Source: Clostridiales bacterium
GTDB lineage: Bacteria > Bacillota > Clostridia > Saccharofermentanales > Saccharofermentanaceae
Direction of reading: 5' to 3'
Assembly (NCBI GenBank): GCA_017527865.1
Contig: JAFXPN010000039.1
Location: forward strand, 62,001 to 126,000
DNA length: 64,000 bases
Below the pieces are notes generated by a model. It was given only the letters and a program-made list of their open reading frames with translations. It ran no database searches and had not been told where the DNA came from. This document shows, in pieces, positions 17,221 to 63,215 of the stretch (its first letter is position 1; every line of letters starts with the position of its first letter). A program made the position numbers and the translations under genes.

Positions 17221-17296
17221 AGGATCATTCTTCGAATATCTACGATCTAATACCGGAAATCCGGTACTATTTTTTAAAAATCTGAATTCTGATCCT
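17221..17296 (+). repeat. 76-bp structured repeat, copy 1
   Basis: A 76-bp element running from AGGATC to GATCCT that folds as a bulged hairpin: outer arm 1-6/71-76, second arm 7-10/64-67, third arm 14-19/49-54, and an inner CCGGA-AA-TCCGG stem. It differs from copy 3 at 13 of 76 positions, several of them in paired sites so that pairing is kept. Same orientation as copies 2 and 3. It lies between the convergent glycosyltransferase and nuclease genes. Confidence 0.85.
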
Positions 17297-17307
17297 GAAA
17301 TCCTCCC

Positions 17308-18099
17308 TTATCTGAAGTGTGTGTCGATCATTTCGTCGAGGATCCTGGTGTCCAGAGGGGTTGTCAGTGTCTCGAAGGTTGCGAACAGATTATCGCCAAG
17401 AAGATATCCGTTTAATCCGTATTCGTGGAGTTTATCGACGTTGTCGGTTGCATAGTCGTGATCATCCATCTTCCCGAAGTGCTCATAATAGATGATCTTA
17501 CGATCGCTAATCCTTAATATCGTGAAGTCCGGGTGGAAGACTATACCTTTGAGGTAGATCGGACACTCGTATTTATATGGGATTCCTGCATGATATAGCC
17601 TGTCAGCGATAATCTGTTCGGACTTCGATCTGACGCGTTCGCCTTTCAAGGTCATGAAGACAGGGATGTTGTCACTGATATACTTATGCTTATAAGGCAT
17701 AGTCAGCCATTGCCTTATATAGTCATCCTCCAGAAGATCATAAGGTTCAATGAGAGCCTTCCGGTCGTCGGTCTCAGAATAATAGATTTCCTCAGCCGTC
17801 TTGGATTCATAACGCCTGACCAGAGGTTTGAGTAACTTCAATTCTGACGATGCGGCACTGAACACTGACTTAAGATAAGCTTTATTTGCAAGGCTCTTGA
17901 TTAAGGATAGATCCTTGATAACTTTTCCGTTCATGTCAGTGTTATCATTGATGTGATAGTAGGTAATGCAATTACCCTGACGTTTGATTCGAAGTCTCCC
18001 CTCGGGGCATCGTGACAATTGCCTCGTGCATGAGTCGATCAGTCTCTCAAGATGCTCATAGCGGAGCTTAACCAGAGATTTAAGCTCTTTGATCCTCAT
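17308..18099 (-). CDS. PD-(D/E)XK nuclease-like protein, accessory
   Basis: 263 residues from the ATG at 18099, picked because AAGGGAG lies 6 bp upstream; earlier in-frame starts lack this. The N-terminal two thirds are charged and helical and unrecognised. The C-terminal part (about residues 155-235) shows the nuclease-like order RSKSEQIIADRL (acidic residue), FHPDFTIL (PD) and YYEHFGKMDD (ExxxG), the pattern of PD-(D/E)XK enzymes. Biological target unknown; a role in DNA defence or repair is inference. It has its own promoter and sits between repeat copies 1 and 2 on the strand opposite its neighbours. Confidence 0.7.
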   Translation of the reverse strand: MRIKELKSLVKLRYEHLERLIDSCTRQLSRCPEGRLRIKRQGNCITYYHINDNTDMNGKVIKDLSLIKSLANKAYLKSVFSAASSELKLLKPLVRRYESKTAEEIYYSETDDRKALIEPYDLLEDDYIRQWLTMPYKHKYISDNIPVFMTLKGERVRSKSEQIIADRLYHAGIPYKYECPIYLKGIVFHPDFTILRISDRKIIYYEHFGKMDDHDYATDNVDKLHEYGLNGYLLGDNLFATFETLTTPLDTRILDEMIDTHFR

Positions 18100-18148
18100 T
18101 TTGGTCTCCCTTAATTCCATATAATGAGCCAATATAACGATTTGTGAG

Positions 18149-18182
18149 ATTATAACACCCTTGAAGCGAATCGAACAAGGGT
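18149..18182 (-). promoter_or_regulatory. Promoter and inverted repeat of the nuclease gene
   Basis: On the minus strand: -35 TTGTTC (18178-18173), 18-bp spacer, -10 TATAAT (18154-18149) preceded by TGT, giving an extended -10. A perfect 7-bp inverted repeat (ACCCTTG at 18157-18163, CAAGGGT at 18176-18182) covers the spacer and -35, the usual place for an operator. Confidence 0.6.
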
Positions 18183-18236
18183 TAAGATTATTATTCGTAT
18201 AAAAAGATGCTGACCTTGGACTTCGAGCCCTGCAAT

Positions 18237-18312
18237 AGGATCATCCATCAACAATCTGCGATCTGATCCCGGAAATCCGGTACTATTGTTTGCAATCCTG
18301 GATTCTGATCCT
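18237..18312 (+). repeat. 76-bp structured repeat, copy 2
   Basis: Identical to copy 3 at 75 of 76 positions (difference at element position 57). Similarity with copy 3 continues for about 25 bp beyond the element on the right (through AACACTG and ATCCCGG). It separates the divergently arranged nuclease and toxin-antitoxin genes. Confidence 0.88.
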
Positions 18313-18426
18313 GAGAACACTGTATCCCGGCAATGACTGAATATGCTCCCCGGGGTCTTTGATATCCGATACAGTGTTTCGACACTTGTTTGAAGAAATG
18401 GAAGATAGTGCGCTTGGATGTAGGGC

Positions 18427-18454
18427 TTGTCATTATTCGATAATGTGTTACAAT
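18427..18454 (+). promoter_or_regulatory. Promoter of the toxin-antitoxin pair
   Basis: -35 TTGTCA (18427-18432), 16-bp spacer, -10 TACAAT (18449-18454) preceded by TGT (extended -10). Confidence 0.65.
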
Positions 18455-18458
18455 ACAA

Positions 18459-18488
18459 GTGGGAAATCCCACGCAGGTTATATCCCAC
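18459..18488 (+). promoter_or_regulatory. Probable autoregulatory operator of the toxin-antitoxin pair
   Basis: The perfect inverted repeat GTGGGA-AA-TCCCAC (18459-18472) overlaps the expected transcription start, and a third half-site ATCCCAC recurs at 18482-18488. Antitoxins usually repress their own promoter from such sites; this use is inferred. Confidence 0.55.
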
Positions 18489-18518
18489 AAAGCTGAATAG
18501 TCTGTTAAGGAGGTTAAC

Positions 18519-18767
18519 ATGATTGGTGCAATAAAAGAATATGACGCTAAAATTGATTCAAAGAAAAGAATAACATTGAGAAGTGTTGCATTTGACTATT
18601 ATCACGTTATTGAAAGAGAGGATGGTACTATTATGCTGGAACCAAGAATCCTGACATCTCCTTATTCTGTGTCAGAGAATACTCTTAACATGATGGACAA
18701 ATCAGTAGAAAACATAAAGAGGGGGAAGGTATCGGAACCCATAGATCTATCAGATATAGAGGACTGA
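18519..18767 (+). CDS. Putative antitoxin, AbrB-like N-terminus
   Basis: 82 residues, acidic. The N-terminal part (YDAKIDSKKRITLRS) resembles the DNA-binding swapped hairpin of AbrB/MazE proteins, and the C-terminal helical tail (MMDKSVENIKRGK, SEPIDLSDIED) would be the toxin-neutralising part. It is followed after 3 bp by a RelE-type toxin gene, the normal antitoxin-first order, and preceded by an AAGGAGG ribosome binding site and an operator-like palindrome. Base composition is AT-richer than the flanking operons, suggesting transfer. Confidence 0.7.
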   Translation: MIGAIKEYDAKIDSKKRITLRSVAFDYYHVIEREDGTIMLEPRILTSPYSVSENTLNMMDKSVENIKRGKVSEPIDLSDIED

Positions 18768-18770
18768 AAT

Positions 18771-19151
18771 ATGTATTCAATTCATATGGGAGTGCCTGAG
18801 ATGAATGACTATTGGACTTCGTTGAATAGTAGAGTCAAATCAGGCGCGGCCTCTAAGAATGAAATAAAGCAGTATAAGCTTCTTGGGAAAGCAATTAAGC
18901 ATTTAGCAGCAGATCCCAGATACCCGGGTCTTCAAACACATGAGATATCTGAACTTACCAATAGATATGGAATGAGGGTATGGCAATCATATTTGTCAAA
19001 TAATACACCTTCCGCAGGAAGGATCTATTGGGTATATGGTCCGAATAAAGATAGTATTACAATAATTGGAATTGAACCACATCCGAACGATAAATCAAAT
19101 TCTTATAAGAAGATAACATTATCATCTTTGGGACAAGAAGCTGATAAATAG
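18771..19151 (+). CDS. RelE/ParE-family toxin
   Basis: 126 residues. The C-terminal strand-rich part (GRIYWVYGPNKDSITIIGI, EPHPNDKSNSYKKITLS) fits the RelE/ParE superfamily; the N-terminal half (helical, LLGKAIKHLAADPRYPGL) matches the toxin's first helices. RelE-type toxins cleave mRNA on ribosomes, ParE-type inhibit gyrase; I cannot separate these here. It is 3 bp after the antitoxin gene and 31 bp before repeat copy 3. Confidence 0.75.
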   Translation: MYSIHMGVPEMNDYWTSLNSRVKSGAASKNEIKQYKLLGKAIKHLAADPRYPGLQTHEISELTNRYGMRVWQSYLSNNTPSAGRIYWVYGPNKDSITIIGIEPHPNDKSNSYKKITLSSLGQEADK

Positions 19152-19182
19152 GTTTGTGGAATGAAACCAGCCGCGCGGTCAT

Positions 19183-19258
19183 AGGATCATCCATCAACAA
19201 TCTGCGATCTGATCCCGGAAATCCGGTACTATTGTTTGAAATCCTGGATTCTGATCCT
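19183..19258 (+). repeat. 76-bp structured repeat, copy 3
   Basis: Third direct copy, closing the island on the right. Same length and fold as the others. It is followed by about 140 bp in which I see no gene before the end of the flippase gene. Confidence 0.88.
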
Positions 19259-59375: not shown

Positions 59376-61715
59376 ATGAAGGTTTTTGAGTCAGGCAGGA
59401 TCAGGATCGTCTCAATGCTTTTGTCGATGATCTTGCTTCTTGGCATAATCCCCGCGATCCCGAAGCAGGAAGTCATTGCCGATGTGGCATCGGTCGACAT
59501 GTACAGGCTCTATAACCCGAACAGCGGTGAGCATTTCTATACATCGAGTACCGGTGAACGCGACGTGTTGATCGGTCTGGGTTGGAATTATGAGGGGATC
59601 GGCTGGGTCGCGCCTTCGACGTCGAATACACCAGTCTATAGATTATACAATCAGTATGGAGGTGAGCATCATTATACGACCAGCCTGAGCGAGCGTAATA
59701 ATCTCATCAGACTCGGCTGGAACGACGAGGGTATCGGCTGGTATTCCGATGATTCGCACAGCGTGCCTTTGTACAGAGAGTATAACCCTAACCAGTTCGC
59801 CAACAATCACAACTATACGACTTCAAGAAACGAGCATAATTATCTCATATCGATCGGATGGCGGGATGAGGGCATCGCCTGGTATGGCATAGGAGGGGGA
59901 AGCCCTGTTACGCCTACGCCGCCTCCCACTGATACCGGTATCGAGGGATACAGCTATGAGATAATCCCATTGCTCGCTCCTTTTAATCAATACTTTTATA
60001 TCAGGACTGATAATCCTGATCCCGAGTCCTTCAGGTTCGCCGATGTATCAAGTGTGTATGCCGAGGGCTCTGATAACCCCGGAAGCATTACACCGGTAGA
60101 TACGGTTTTCGCTGATGTCAGGTATGAAGACGCAAGTATAGCGCGCGTAAACGGCGGGTATATAGCTGCGGGTTCCCTGACGGATGGCGGTACCATGAGG
60201 CTTCAGAAAGTCGTGGTAACGGGATCGTACCCCGTAACAAATATCACCACGGGACAGGTAACCATACAAAAGACGTATCAGTATATTGATACAAACATAA
60301 CCAAAGAAGTGTCTGCGGTCATGAGCAATCTGGATTACGTGATACGGAACTATACAACGTCCGGAGCCGCATTCTTCGATAATATGGATTCAGCTCAGGC
60401 GGGATTCGGGAGCATCTGCCTTTACAGCGGCACATATGTGTTGGGCGAACTCAAGAAAAAAGAGGGGCTGTACTTCGGATTGTCAACGTCCCCTCATGCG
60501 GATCAGACTTTCTATATCCAGGATCCTTATTACAGAGAGGATTCACAATCGATGCTTACGGGAGCACTGTATCCGTTCAGATATGATTCTCTCGGATTCC
60601 CCAGCTTTATGGTGAGCGTAGCCAAAAAGCTCGATCCTTCCGCTACTTACCAGTGGGACAGCTATAATCACTATATAGTCCACATTACATGCAACGGGGA
60701 GACGAGATCCTACGGAGGCGCGGGAACCGGCGGCGGACAGGGTATCGAGCGCAATATGATAAGCCGTTACTTTAAGTTTAACGGAAGTTCAGGAGATCTT
60801 TACGGGAACTATACGTTGACATCTCTTGCGCAGCTTAACAACGAATACGGCGCACTTGAGATCCCTGACAGGCGCGAAAACATCCTTACCTGCCAGCAGG
60901 TAAGAAACAGCGTCGGCACGGAAGGAAGATATGTGAGGTTGATCCTTATCACGTCGATATTCGGAGGATCTACGACGGGGTATACATATCTTTATGACAA
61001 TGGCGCAACCGGCGAAAGTTCAAATAGAACCCTAAACATCGGTCATTTCTCTAATGCATGGTTTGAGGGAAGATACTATAACACAAGGGAATACTGGTAT
61101 CCGGGCGCAGGCCTTGCGGATACGGCACAGAATGTTCAGCCCGCTCTCGTATTCAGGGATTTCCATATGCCGCTGCCGGCATCGAGCGCAGGCATCTATG
61201 CCCTTATAGGAACTCCCATCGGGTCTTCCGCGTGGAGTGTTCGTAAATCACAGATCACTTCGGCATGCGGATATGATCCTGCTACCGGAAACTGGAACGG
61301 ATTTACTTATTTTAAATACAATTCCACGACGGGCAACTGGGAATTGGATTATTTCGAGAGTTATAACCGTTACAGGGTCTACTTCTCGAGCGGCGTCTTC
61401 GTGGGTAATACAGACACCCGGGTAACGGATGCGGATTTTGTCAATGCAAGTGTGATAACGCTTGCGGAGGGTACTGCTATGGGCGTTGATGCCAATACGA
61501 ATACGGAGCCTGCGAGTTTCCTTATCTACGACCGGACTGTTGAGCCCGGAACAGAAGGGACATTGTCGAGCCCGTCGGCATATGCGGTGGATGTGTCCGA
61601 TCCGAGAGCAGACTTTGATCCCGCGGCAGGACCTTCCGCAACGGATGAGAATGTGTATATCAATTACAACCGGATTGACCCGGATCCTGTAAATGAAGAG
61701 ATTGAAGAGAACTAA
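59376..61715 (+). CDS. Large secreted protein with N-terminal DUF5648-type repeats
   Basis: 779 residues with a signal peptide (about 1-36; good site GAGGTGACGG). Residues 40-175 hold three DUF5648-like repeats (MYRLYNPNSGEHFYTSS, VYRLYNQYGGEHHYTTS, LYREYNPNQFANNHNYTTS, each ending with a GWxxEGIxW element). The remaining 600 residues are rich in beta strands, Gly, Ser and Thr and I recognise no family. No sortase or S-layer anchor is seen; probably secreted or bound through the repeats. Confidence 0.82.
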   Translation: MKVFESGRIRIVSMLLSMILLLGIIPAIPKQEVIADVASVDMYRLYNPNSGEHFYTSSTGERDVLIGLGWNYEGIGWVAPSTSNTPVYRLYNQYGGEHHYTTSLSERNNLIRLGWNDEGIGWYSDDSHSVPLYREYNPNQFANNHNYTTSRNEHNYLISIGWRDEGIAWYGIGGGSPVTPTPPPTDTGIEGYSYEIIPLLAPFNQYFYIRTDNPDPESFRFADVSSVYAEGSDNPGSITPVDTVFADVRYEDASIARVNGGYIAAGSLTDGGTMRLQKVVVTGSYPVTNITTGQVTIQKTYQYIDTNITKEVSAVMSNLDYVIRNYTTSGAAFFDNMDSAQAGFGSICLYSGTYVLGELKKKEGLYFGLSTSPHADQTFYIQDPYYREDSQSMLTGALYPFRYDSLGFPSFMVSVAKKLDPSATYQWDSYNHYIVHITCNGETRSYGGAGTGGGQGIERNMISRYFKFNGSSGDLYGNYTLTSLAQLNNEYGALEIPDRRENILTCQQVRNSVGTEGRYVRLILITSIFGGSTTGYTYLYDNGATGESSNRTLNIGHFSNAWFEGRYYNTREYWYPGAGLADTAQNVQPALVFRDFHMPLPASSAGIYALIGTPIGSSAWSVRKSQITSACGYDPATGNWNGFTYFKYNSTTGNWELDYFESYNRYRVYFSSGVFVGNTDTRVTDADFVNASVITLAEGTAMGVDANTNTEPASFLIYDRTVEPGTEGTLSSPSAYAVDVSDPRADFDPAAGPSATDENVYINYNRIDPDPVNEEIEEN
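59493..59894 (+). repeat. DUF5648-type repeat block A
   Basis: A 402-bp segment encoding about 134 residues that recurs with high protein similarity at 62811-63212, at the other end of the neighbouring gene. Confidence 0.8.
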
Positions 61716-61736
61716 TGATAATAGGGAGGTACTTCG

Positions 61737-63215
61737 ATGAAGAGGATTAAGCTGATTGCGGCAGTACTGTCGGTGACCTTTGTTATGGGAATGATCCCGT
61801 TGTCTAAGGTCAGGGCGGATGATAATGAATATAATACAGGGCTGGAGCCTCTCGAAGCCGTCAGGATCCCGGATGAAGAAGCCGGCGAACTGTTTGAGGA
61901 AGTCGTATTTGACCGGGCAAGTCATGCGACTGCCACGAACAGTACATACGGCAAGTATACCTGTGACGCTTTCTATGATCAGATGTCAGCTGATGAGAAG
62001 CAGCTGTATGATAATCTGTATGCAGCTTGTGAGACAGCCCTTACGGGGAATGCCGATCTGAGCGTTTATTTTAATCATACCGTTGTCGGACCTGCGGAAT
62101 ACAGTAACCTTACGGATGATGAAGTAGCTAATGTGATATGGATCTTTATGAACAGTAATCCGCAGTTCTATTTCCTCAGCAACGGTTATATGTTTTCTTC
62201 GAGCAGCATACTCATAATGTGCTTTGACGAGTTTAAGACAGGTTCTGCAAGGCGGGAAGCTACGAATGCATATTTCAGTGTCGTTAATGAGATCATGACC
62301 GCGGTGAATACGGGATCGACTCCTTATGCCAAGGTCAAGATCGCGCACGATGAGCTTAGTGACCGTGTTACTTATAACCTTGATGCTGATTTCAATCAGA
62401 GCAGCTACAGCGCATTTGTTCTGGGGCAGACCGTTTGCGCCGGATACGCGGAGGCCATGGAATGCCTTTGCAATGCAGCAGGAGTACCTGCGATAGCGGT
62501 TACCAGTACCGGACACGAATGGAACGAGGTATGTTTGAACGGTTATTGGTATGTTGTGGATGTAACGTGGGACGATGGTGATCCCGGAACAATATATGAT
62601 TACTTTTTAAAGAGCTATGCTACGGTCAAGGGTTACAGTGATTATGCAAGCCTGCATCATACATTAGAGGCATTCTGGACACCCTGCGGCTGTCCCGAAT
62701 GTCTGTACGACTGGCCGGAACCCAATCCCAATCCGAATCCCGATCCCGATCCCAACCCTGATCCTGATCCGAACCCCGATCCGGATCCCGATCCCGCGCC
62801 TGCAGGTTCGGTCAATATGTACAGACTTTATAATCCCAACAGCGGGGAGCATTTCTATACATCGAGTTTAGGAGAGAGGAATAATCTCATCAGTCTCGGC
62901 TGGAACGATGAAGGCATCGGATGGATCGCTCCCAGGACTTCTGACACTCCCGTATACAGACTATACAATCAGTACGGCGGAGAGCATCACTATACGACCA
63001 GCATAGCCGAGCGCAATCATCTTATCAGTGTCGGCTGGAATGATGAGGGGATAGGATGGTATTCTGATGATGCACAGACGGTTCCTTTATACAGGCAGTA
63101 CAATCCGAATGCATTTGCAAACAACCATAACTACACAACATCTTTGTCTGAGAACAACTGGCTCGTATCTATCGGTTGGCATGCTGAAGGCATCGGCTGG
63201 TACGGCGTAGGCTGA
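61737..63215 (+). CDS. Secreted transglutaminase-like protein with C-terminal DUF5648-type repeats
   Basis: 492 residues. Signal peptide (about 1-27), linker, a transglutaminase-like domain (about 150-325) with the triad visible as VCAGYAEAMECLCNAAGV (Cys), GHEWNEVCLNGYWYVVD (His) and DVTWDDGD (Asp), then an Asn/Asp-Pro linker (about 328-355), then three DUF5648-like repeats (about 359-492). Transglutaminase-like enzymes act as peptidases or cross-linkers on proteins or peptides; its substrate is unknown. GGGAGGT precedes the ATG. Confidence 0.85.
   Translation: MKRIKLIAAVLSVTFVMGMIPLSKVRADDNEYNTGLEPLEAVRIPDEEAGELFEEVVFDRASHATATNSTYGKYTCDAFYDQMSADEKQLYDNLYAACETALTGNADLSVYFNHTVVGPAEYSNLTDDEVANVIWIFMNSNPQFYFLSNGYMFSSSSILIMCFDEFKTGSARREATNAYFSVVNEIMTAVNTGSTPYAKVKIAHDELSDRVTYNLDADFNQSSYSAFVLGQTVCAGYAEAMECLCNAAGVPAIAVTSTGHEWNEVCLNGYWYVVDVTWDDGDPGTIYDYFLKSYATVKGYSDYASLHHTLEAFWTPCGCPECLYDWPEPNPNPNPDPDPNPDPDPNPDPDPDPAPAGSVNMYRLYNPNSGEHFYTSSLGERNNLISLGWNDEGIGWIAPRTSDTPVYRLYNQYGGEHHYTTSIAERNHLISVGWNDEGIGWYSDDAQTVPLYRQYNPNAFANNHNYTTSLSENNWLVSIGWHAEGIGWYGVG
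62719..62800 (+). repeat. Imperfect hexanucleotide repeat encoding an Asn/Asp-Pro linker
   Basis: Successive variants of AATCCC and GATCCC encode alternating Asn-Pro and Asp-Pro. Such tracts change length easily by slippage, in steps that keep the frame. Confidence 0.8.
62811..63212 (+). repeat. DUF5648-type repeat block B
   Basis: The C-terminal counterpart of block A, with the same three-repeat order. Confidence 0.8.

Follow-up and report, generated by a model that had tools for sequence, protein, structure and literature searches.

Three direct 76-bp quasi-palindromic repeats alternate with accessory genes in a 64,000-nucleotide stretch of a Clostridiales bacterium genome (Saccharofermentanaceae; the whole stretch is called the window below), and one of these genes encodes a PD-(D/E)XK nuclease whose relatives adjoin private arrays of short, phased DNA motifs. 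Copy 1 (17221..17296, + strand), copy 2 (18237..18312, +), and copy 3 (19183..19258, +) all begin with AGGATC and end with GATCCT, just as a sequence-only reading of the window had described them. That reading was also correct about the contents of the two intervals, namely a single nuclease gene in 17297-18236 and a single two-gene unit in 18313-19182. The nuclease (270-274 aa; 17308..18132, - strand) has three candidate starts (TTG 18132, ATG 18120 or ATG 18099), with copy 1 starting 11 bp downstream of its stop codon and copy 2 located 104 bp upstream of the TTG start. The two-gene unit encodes a small 82-aa protein that resembles an antitoxin in its position (18519..18767, +) and a toxin-like protein of 126 aa (18771..19151, +), and copy 3 lies between the toxin-like gene and a convergent flippase-like gene. 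The description of both intervals as self-promoted units was not supported, with promoter-like matches in them occurring at chance level. The label "defence" likewise found little backing, as the nuclease matches PADLOC candidate models with its C-terminal part only and neither of the other two proteins has a match in PADLOC, Pfam or NCBIfam.

Copy 3 departs from copy 2 at a single position, and copy 1 departs from it at 14 of 76. Part of the compensatory change proposed earlier between copy 1 and copies 2/3 could be reproduced in a structure of 22 pairs, with double changes at 9/65 and 16/52 and a G-T/A-T exchange at 14/54, while the pairs 17/51 and 32/45 are not kept. When 14 random substitutions were simulated, two double changes alone arose in 2.9% of simulations, and at least two double changes together with at most two broken pairs in 0.3-0.9%, which is modest support because the structure was chosen on the same sequences. 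The proposal that all copies fold into one common hairpin was not borne out, since the minimum-energy folds of the three copies as free single-stranded DNA are not the same (z-scores of -2.6, -1.7, and -1.9). Rfam contained no structured-RNA match for the repeat at E values up to 1. The conserved core is AATAGTACCGG, arranged as the palindrome AATAGTACCGG-ATTT-CCGGTACTATT, and copy 1 additionally contains a terminator-like hairpin (TACCGGAAATCCGGTA-CTATTTTTTA). Copies 2 and 3 remain alike for ~24 bp beyond the right edge (99% identity over 76 bp, 96% over ~99 bp), so that this edge is no sharp boundary and the element that was duplicated as copies 2 and 3 is nearer 100 bp. Their common right-hand extension starts with GARAACACTGYATCCCGGSAA (18313..18336, + strand, at copy 2), and a perfect 11-bp inverted pair, AACACTGTATC / GATACAGTGTT (18316..18378), adjoins copy 2 ahead of the two-gene unit.

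A covariance-model search of all 2.15 Mb of the genome (41 contigs, 94.5% complete), the check that had been suggested together with the original description, and an additional DNA search returned these three full copies only. Neither search gave a convincing 76-bp copy in 84 genomes of the same genus. The 76-bp repeat is private to one locus and is neither scattered nor part of a larger cassette array; genome-wide dispersal in the manner of repetitive extragenic palindromic (REP) elements was not found, the three copies being clustered. Two lesser matches exist in the window genome: the 23-bp core palindrome recurs at an intergenic position on contig C34 (G000:C34:29823), and a full-length but weak match of 77 bp follows a gene end on contig C27 (L124, 1501-1577; G000:C27:23552-23628; E 0.01-0.04), possibly representing a diverged fourth copy. 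An 18-mer of the core had five matches among 84,980 species genomes, all in unrelated taxa and at about the number expected by chance, and a 19-mer of the repeat had none in viral contigs. Among the covariance-model matches in relatives, L120-L122 look like chance, and L123 is itself a 52-bp-type array (see below) of the motif GGTATACT.

The nuclease has no match in Pfam or NCBIfam. Its AlphaFold model (predicted local distance difference test score, pLDDT, 94) consists of an N-terminal helix, a beta-hairpin, and a long helix, followed by a C-terminal PD-(D/E)XK nuclease domain. Foldseek returned nothing at E 0.001 or better; VIA-align placed residues 154-270 among PD-(D/E)XK nucleases with middling Z scores, and the closest listed structures include I-Bth0305I, TnsA, and Bax1 (Z 7.5-8.7, again middling). 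The C-terminal ~130 residues match the PADLOC candidate PDC-S68 (E 7e-24). The conserved motif SKSE...D...ExH is present in the window nuclease, where S165, K166, E168, and D198 are positions invariant in the family and E213 and H214 nearly so. Of 115 genomes in the taxonomic family, 111 have matches to this nuclease family, at most 15 in any one genome and some of them restricted to the nuclease domain; in the window genome itself, a single full-length member is accompanied by five weak matches to the domain. The window nuclease shares 36-55% identity with 66 members and groups in the tree with L011 and L012 as its sister (support 93/87). In a broad sample of the phylum, six genomes beyond the taxonomic family were matched, four of them with full-length members, and all six belong to one other family of the same class. 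On the viral side, nine contigs share essentially only the C-terminal nuclease domain, and a fuller relative (29% identity) is located on an unannotated 4.2-kb faecal scaffold labelled as phage.

Most of the 69 nuclease relatives whose flanks we surveyed adjoin an array in which a short motif recurs in alternating orientation, and this motif differs from nuclease to nuclease. With a strict scan (score of at least 5 of 8), arrays of period 52 were detected in 45 of 69 loci within ~0.5 kb of the nuclease gene, compared to 0-1 of 69 loci for each of seven other periods and no period-52 array elsewhere in the same loci. The arrays are built from alternating inverted half-sites with dyads ~26 bp apart, giving the period of 52 bp (five helical turns), and eight slots were the most common length in chains of the best motif (21 of 47). 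In many arrays the central gap falls one or two bases short of the gaps beside it, as though two halves joined at this point. Spacers are mostly unconserved, and the half-sites would therefore behave as phased double-stranded binding sites and not as hairpins. Some loci of the other family within the class also carry periodic arrays. Periods other than 52 bp were noticed as well, i.e. 74-75 bp (L083, L085), 41 bp (L078), 63-64 bp (L140), and 83 bp (L133). Two closely related nucleases from two species, L030 and L031, have different array motifs (TGTATCTG and TGTGCCCC); their downstream sequences are similar and it looks like the same locus in both species, as if the enzyme and its motif had been replaced together.

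For two nucleases, the array motif is also dispersed through the cognate genome. The motif of L022 forms 31 inverted pairs in its own genome, one pair in a single other genome, and none in the rest of 84 other genomes. For L057, 58 pairs of the motif were counted in the cognate genome, and two other genomes had a single pair each. Dispersed copies of the L022 motif are intergenic and repeat the same 31/22/31/20/31/22/31 spacing with different spacers, with at most single sites lost. An unbiased scan across 400 kb of the L057 genome returned two strong arrays (none in the shuffled control), one adjoining another nuclease, L018, and the other consisting of the L057 motif at a distance of more than 570 kb from L057 itself. 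In a third genome, an array of GGTATACT, the motif of its nuclease L025, is located on another contig. At the intergenic site between genes that we take to be prmA and hisS from our own reading of the proteins, one species has an array of TTTACCCC and a related species has pairs of TGTATCGA with spacers that cannot be aligned; judged from these sequences, sites recur there and the motif turns over. The genomes of L022 and L057 (G056 and G006) both have dispersed eight-site arrays of 52-bp period, as seen too at L096 and G006:C1:235850-236320, and direct CCGACAA units are repeated at G006:C1:129640-130080 where G056 has the TTTACCCC array. No description of a nuclease-linked 52-bp inverted array was found in the open-access literature, a search outside of which most subscription papers and all preprints lie. 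We regard the nuclease family with its private phased arrays as a well-supported new result, and it is this system to which the novelty refers.

Given this background, the explanation that we prefer sees in the 76-bp repeats an atypical form of cognate DNA elements belonging to the nuclease between copies 1 and 2; we give this explanation an even chance and consider it likely but unproven. All three copies lie within ~1.1 kb of the only full-length family nuclease in the genome. In eight relatives the downstream array starts 2-14 bp after the nuclease stop codon, a range that includes the 11 bp seen for copy 1. The sister nucleases L011 and L012 have the motif ACAGTACC, which shares AGTACC with the core AATAGTACCGG, and when the 76-bp model was run against 66 nuclease loci, the L011 array scored best, at only E = 0.045. 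Copies 2 and 3 can be read as four alternating sites with a period of 42 (GGATCA, TGATCC, a diverged site, and TGATCC).

Several observations weigh against a link between repeats and nuclease. When the 76-bp copies were aligned directly with 138 flanks, L011 ranked 5th and L012 16th with weak similarity, so the resemblance to the sister arrays is suggestive only at the level of sequence. The window nuclease has no 52-bp array, its locus scoring 2/8 on either side, and an unbiased scan of 460 kb of the window genome at eight periods detected none; AGTACC pairs of the L011/L012 type are likewise absent from the window genome. The 76-bp elements differ in geometry from the 52-bp arrays, the four-slot reading is based on copies 2 and 3, with slot 3 not fitting in any copy and slot 2 not fitting in copy 1, and copy 3 bounds the toxin-like unit and not the nuclease. 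Nuclease binding, cutting, and the spread of elements are roles that we infer from sequences, which do not separate homing, operator, and immunity functions.

Each enzyme of the family would form a multi-subunit complex that binds its own array, in double-stranded form, at the half-sites, and this array would be an operator as well as a substrate for cutting or copying by the nuclease. Elements could then spread by cut-and-repair, and motif and nuclease would change together. In the lineage of the window, where the 52-bp array is missing, three quasi-palindromic 76-bp elements would have taken its place, the stop codon of the nuclease gene being followed directly by copy 1. A more recent duplication would have given rise to copies 2 and 3, which now bracket a unit that resembles a toxin-antitoxin pair and was probably acquired horizontally. 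Going one step further, we tentatively propose an undescribed class of nuclease-and-repeat systems, a generalization that we hold to be possible and short of probable: the nuclease would assemble on an array of about eight phased private half-sites, control itself through this array, and spread such arrays through the genome, enzyme and motif would be replaced together between species, and the 76-bp repeats would represent a version of the element cut down to four sites.

The main competing explanation is an ordinary local repeat, i.e. a terminator-like palindrome or one resembling a miniature inverted-repeat transposable element (MITE), which has nothing to do with the nuclease and was duplicated when accessory genes entered a polysaccharide cluster, copies 2 and 3 being direct repeats created by insertion of the two-gene unit. 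We see this as a serious possibility that falls somewhat short of an even chance. The overrun of ~24 bp shared by copies 2 and 3, the terminator-like hairpin of copy 1 between convergent genes, and the two lesser matches on contigs C34 and C27 all agree with it, while the genes on either side of copy 2 diverge and need no terminator between them, all three copies are found near the one family nuclease, and paired positions were kept more often than under random substitution. The history of the two-gene unit is consistent with such an insertion as well. By their layout, the genes of the 82-aa and 126-aa proteins look like a toxin-antitoxin pair, the toxin-like gene is the only copy among the 115 genomes of the family, being absent from the 114 related ones, and its homologues are found on plasmids. 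A plasmid of Lactobacillus helsingborgensis has a unit of the same layout, in which the 126-aa homologue follows a gene sized like that of the 82-aa protein, next to a tyrosine recombinase. A comparison of the 126-aa protein with sequences of solved structures gave no match. That copies 2 and 3 are almost identical would fit a two-gene unit that was acquired together with a repeat. Homologues of the flippase (56-59% identity) in G020, G047, and G063 are followed by other neighbours, with neither repeats nor an array, and these differing downstream neighbours provide no usable empty site. Farther along the window (59502-63142) are two families of direct repeats, with lengths of 105 and 254 nt, together with a repeat of the CCCGATCC type at 62715-62804, which are probably repeated protein domains with a Pro-Asn/Asp linker.

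A simple homologous crossover between direct repeats 2 and 3, moving the 946-bp toxin-antitoxin-like segment in or out with repeats that have no function of their own, is improbable in our view. The direct orientation of copies 2 and 3 and their high identity would suit it, and it leaves copy 1, the dyad symmetry, and the pairing-preserving changes unexplained. We consider it highly improbable that the locus is an integron-like cassette array, as the sequence-only reading had offered, in which a tyrosine or Y1 recombinase would act on the folded strand and mobilize one interval plus one repeat as a unit. The regular alternation of repeats and genes, the asymmetric hairpin with two compensatory pairs, and accessory-type genes in both intervals speak for this kind of array. 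Against it stand the restriction to three copies genome-wide with none in relatives, opposite gene orientations in the two intervals, and the similarity of copies 2 and 3 that overruns one edge. Moreover, the best match to the integron integrase model TIGR02249 in the window genome reaches 55.8 bits against a cut-off of 265, and the same weak ring of matches was present in 14 of 14 control genomes. The remark of that reading that the attC core consensus is lacking was accurate, as neither R box (GTTRRRY / RYYYAAC) was found in any copy with its 10-bp flanks on either strand.

If the interpretation of nuclease and arrays as partners is true, a whole genus, and beyond it one or more further families within the class, carry many copies of a nuclease that coevolves with its own phased array. 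This would amount to a natural series of DNA-binding specificities with a record of the target beside each gene, providing pairs of enzyme and motif that might allow a recognition code to be deduced. A second enzyme class would then join the type of repeat-enzyme partnership known from REP elements and their REP-associated tyrosine transposases (RAYTs), and the origin of dispersed intergenic palindromes would become directly testable.

Compared to known systems, the 76-bp repeats share with integron attC sites a bulged hairpin with asymmetric loops, a position between accessory genes, and the repeat-gene-repeat layout, while they differ in the lack of an integrase above cut-off and of R boxes, the three copies, and the mixed gene orientation. 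The other suggestion of the sequence-only reading, a REP-type family, is partly upheld: the nuclease family does carry private, dispersed inverted-repeat arrays, whereas the 76-bp copies are local and the tetranucleotide foot at the palindrome base is not conserved (GTAG at copy 1 only, CGTC in none), which places these copies outside the definition of REPs. Occurrence in many copies, characteristic of REPs and REPINs, is a property of the arrays of sister nucleases and not of the 76-bp repeat. Like REPs and REPINs with their RAYT (TnpA-REP), the arrays are short private palindromic elements tied to a specific nuclease-like gene, dispersed within one genome, mostly intergenic, and quickly turned over between species. 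Unlike them, the enzyme is a PD-(D/E)XK nuclease instead of a Y1 HUH transposase, and about eight half-sites with a 52-bp period and mostly unconserved spacers take the place of one or two hairpins. The PDC-S68 models span ~1200-1270 positions, in contrast to the stand-alone window protein. TnsA of Tn7 and the homing endonuclease I-Bth0305I are similar in their PD-(D/E)XK domain (residues 137-270; middling Z of 8.3 for TnsA and 8.7 for I-Bth0305I), and the ends of Tn7 also bear arrays of protein-binding sites. A TnsB/C partner was not seen in the loci examined, and what sets the window family apart from both enzymes is its own N-terminal helix/beta-hairpin/helix domain and its 52-bp arrays, which are found next to the gene as well as dispersed.
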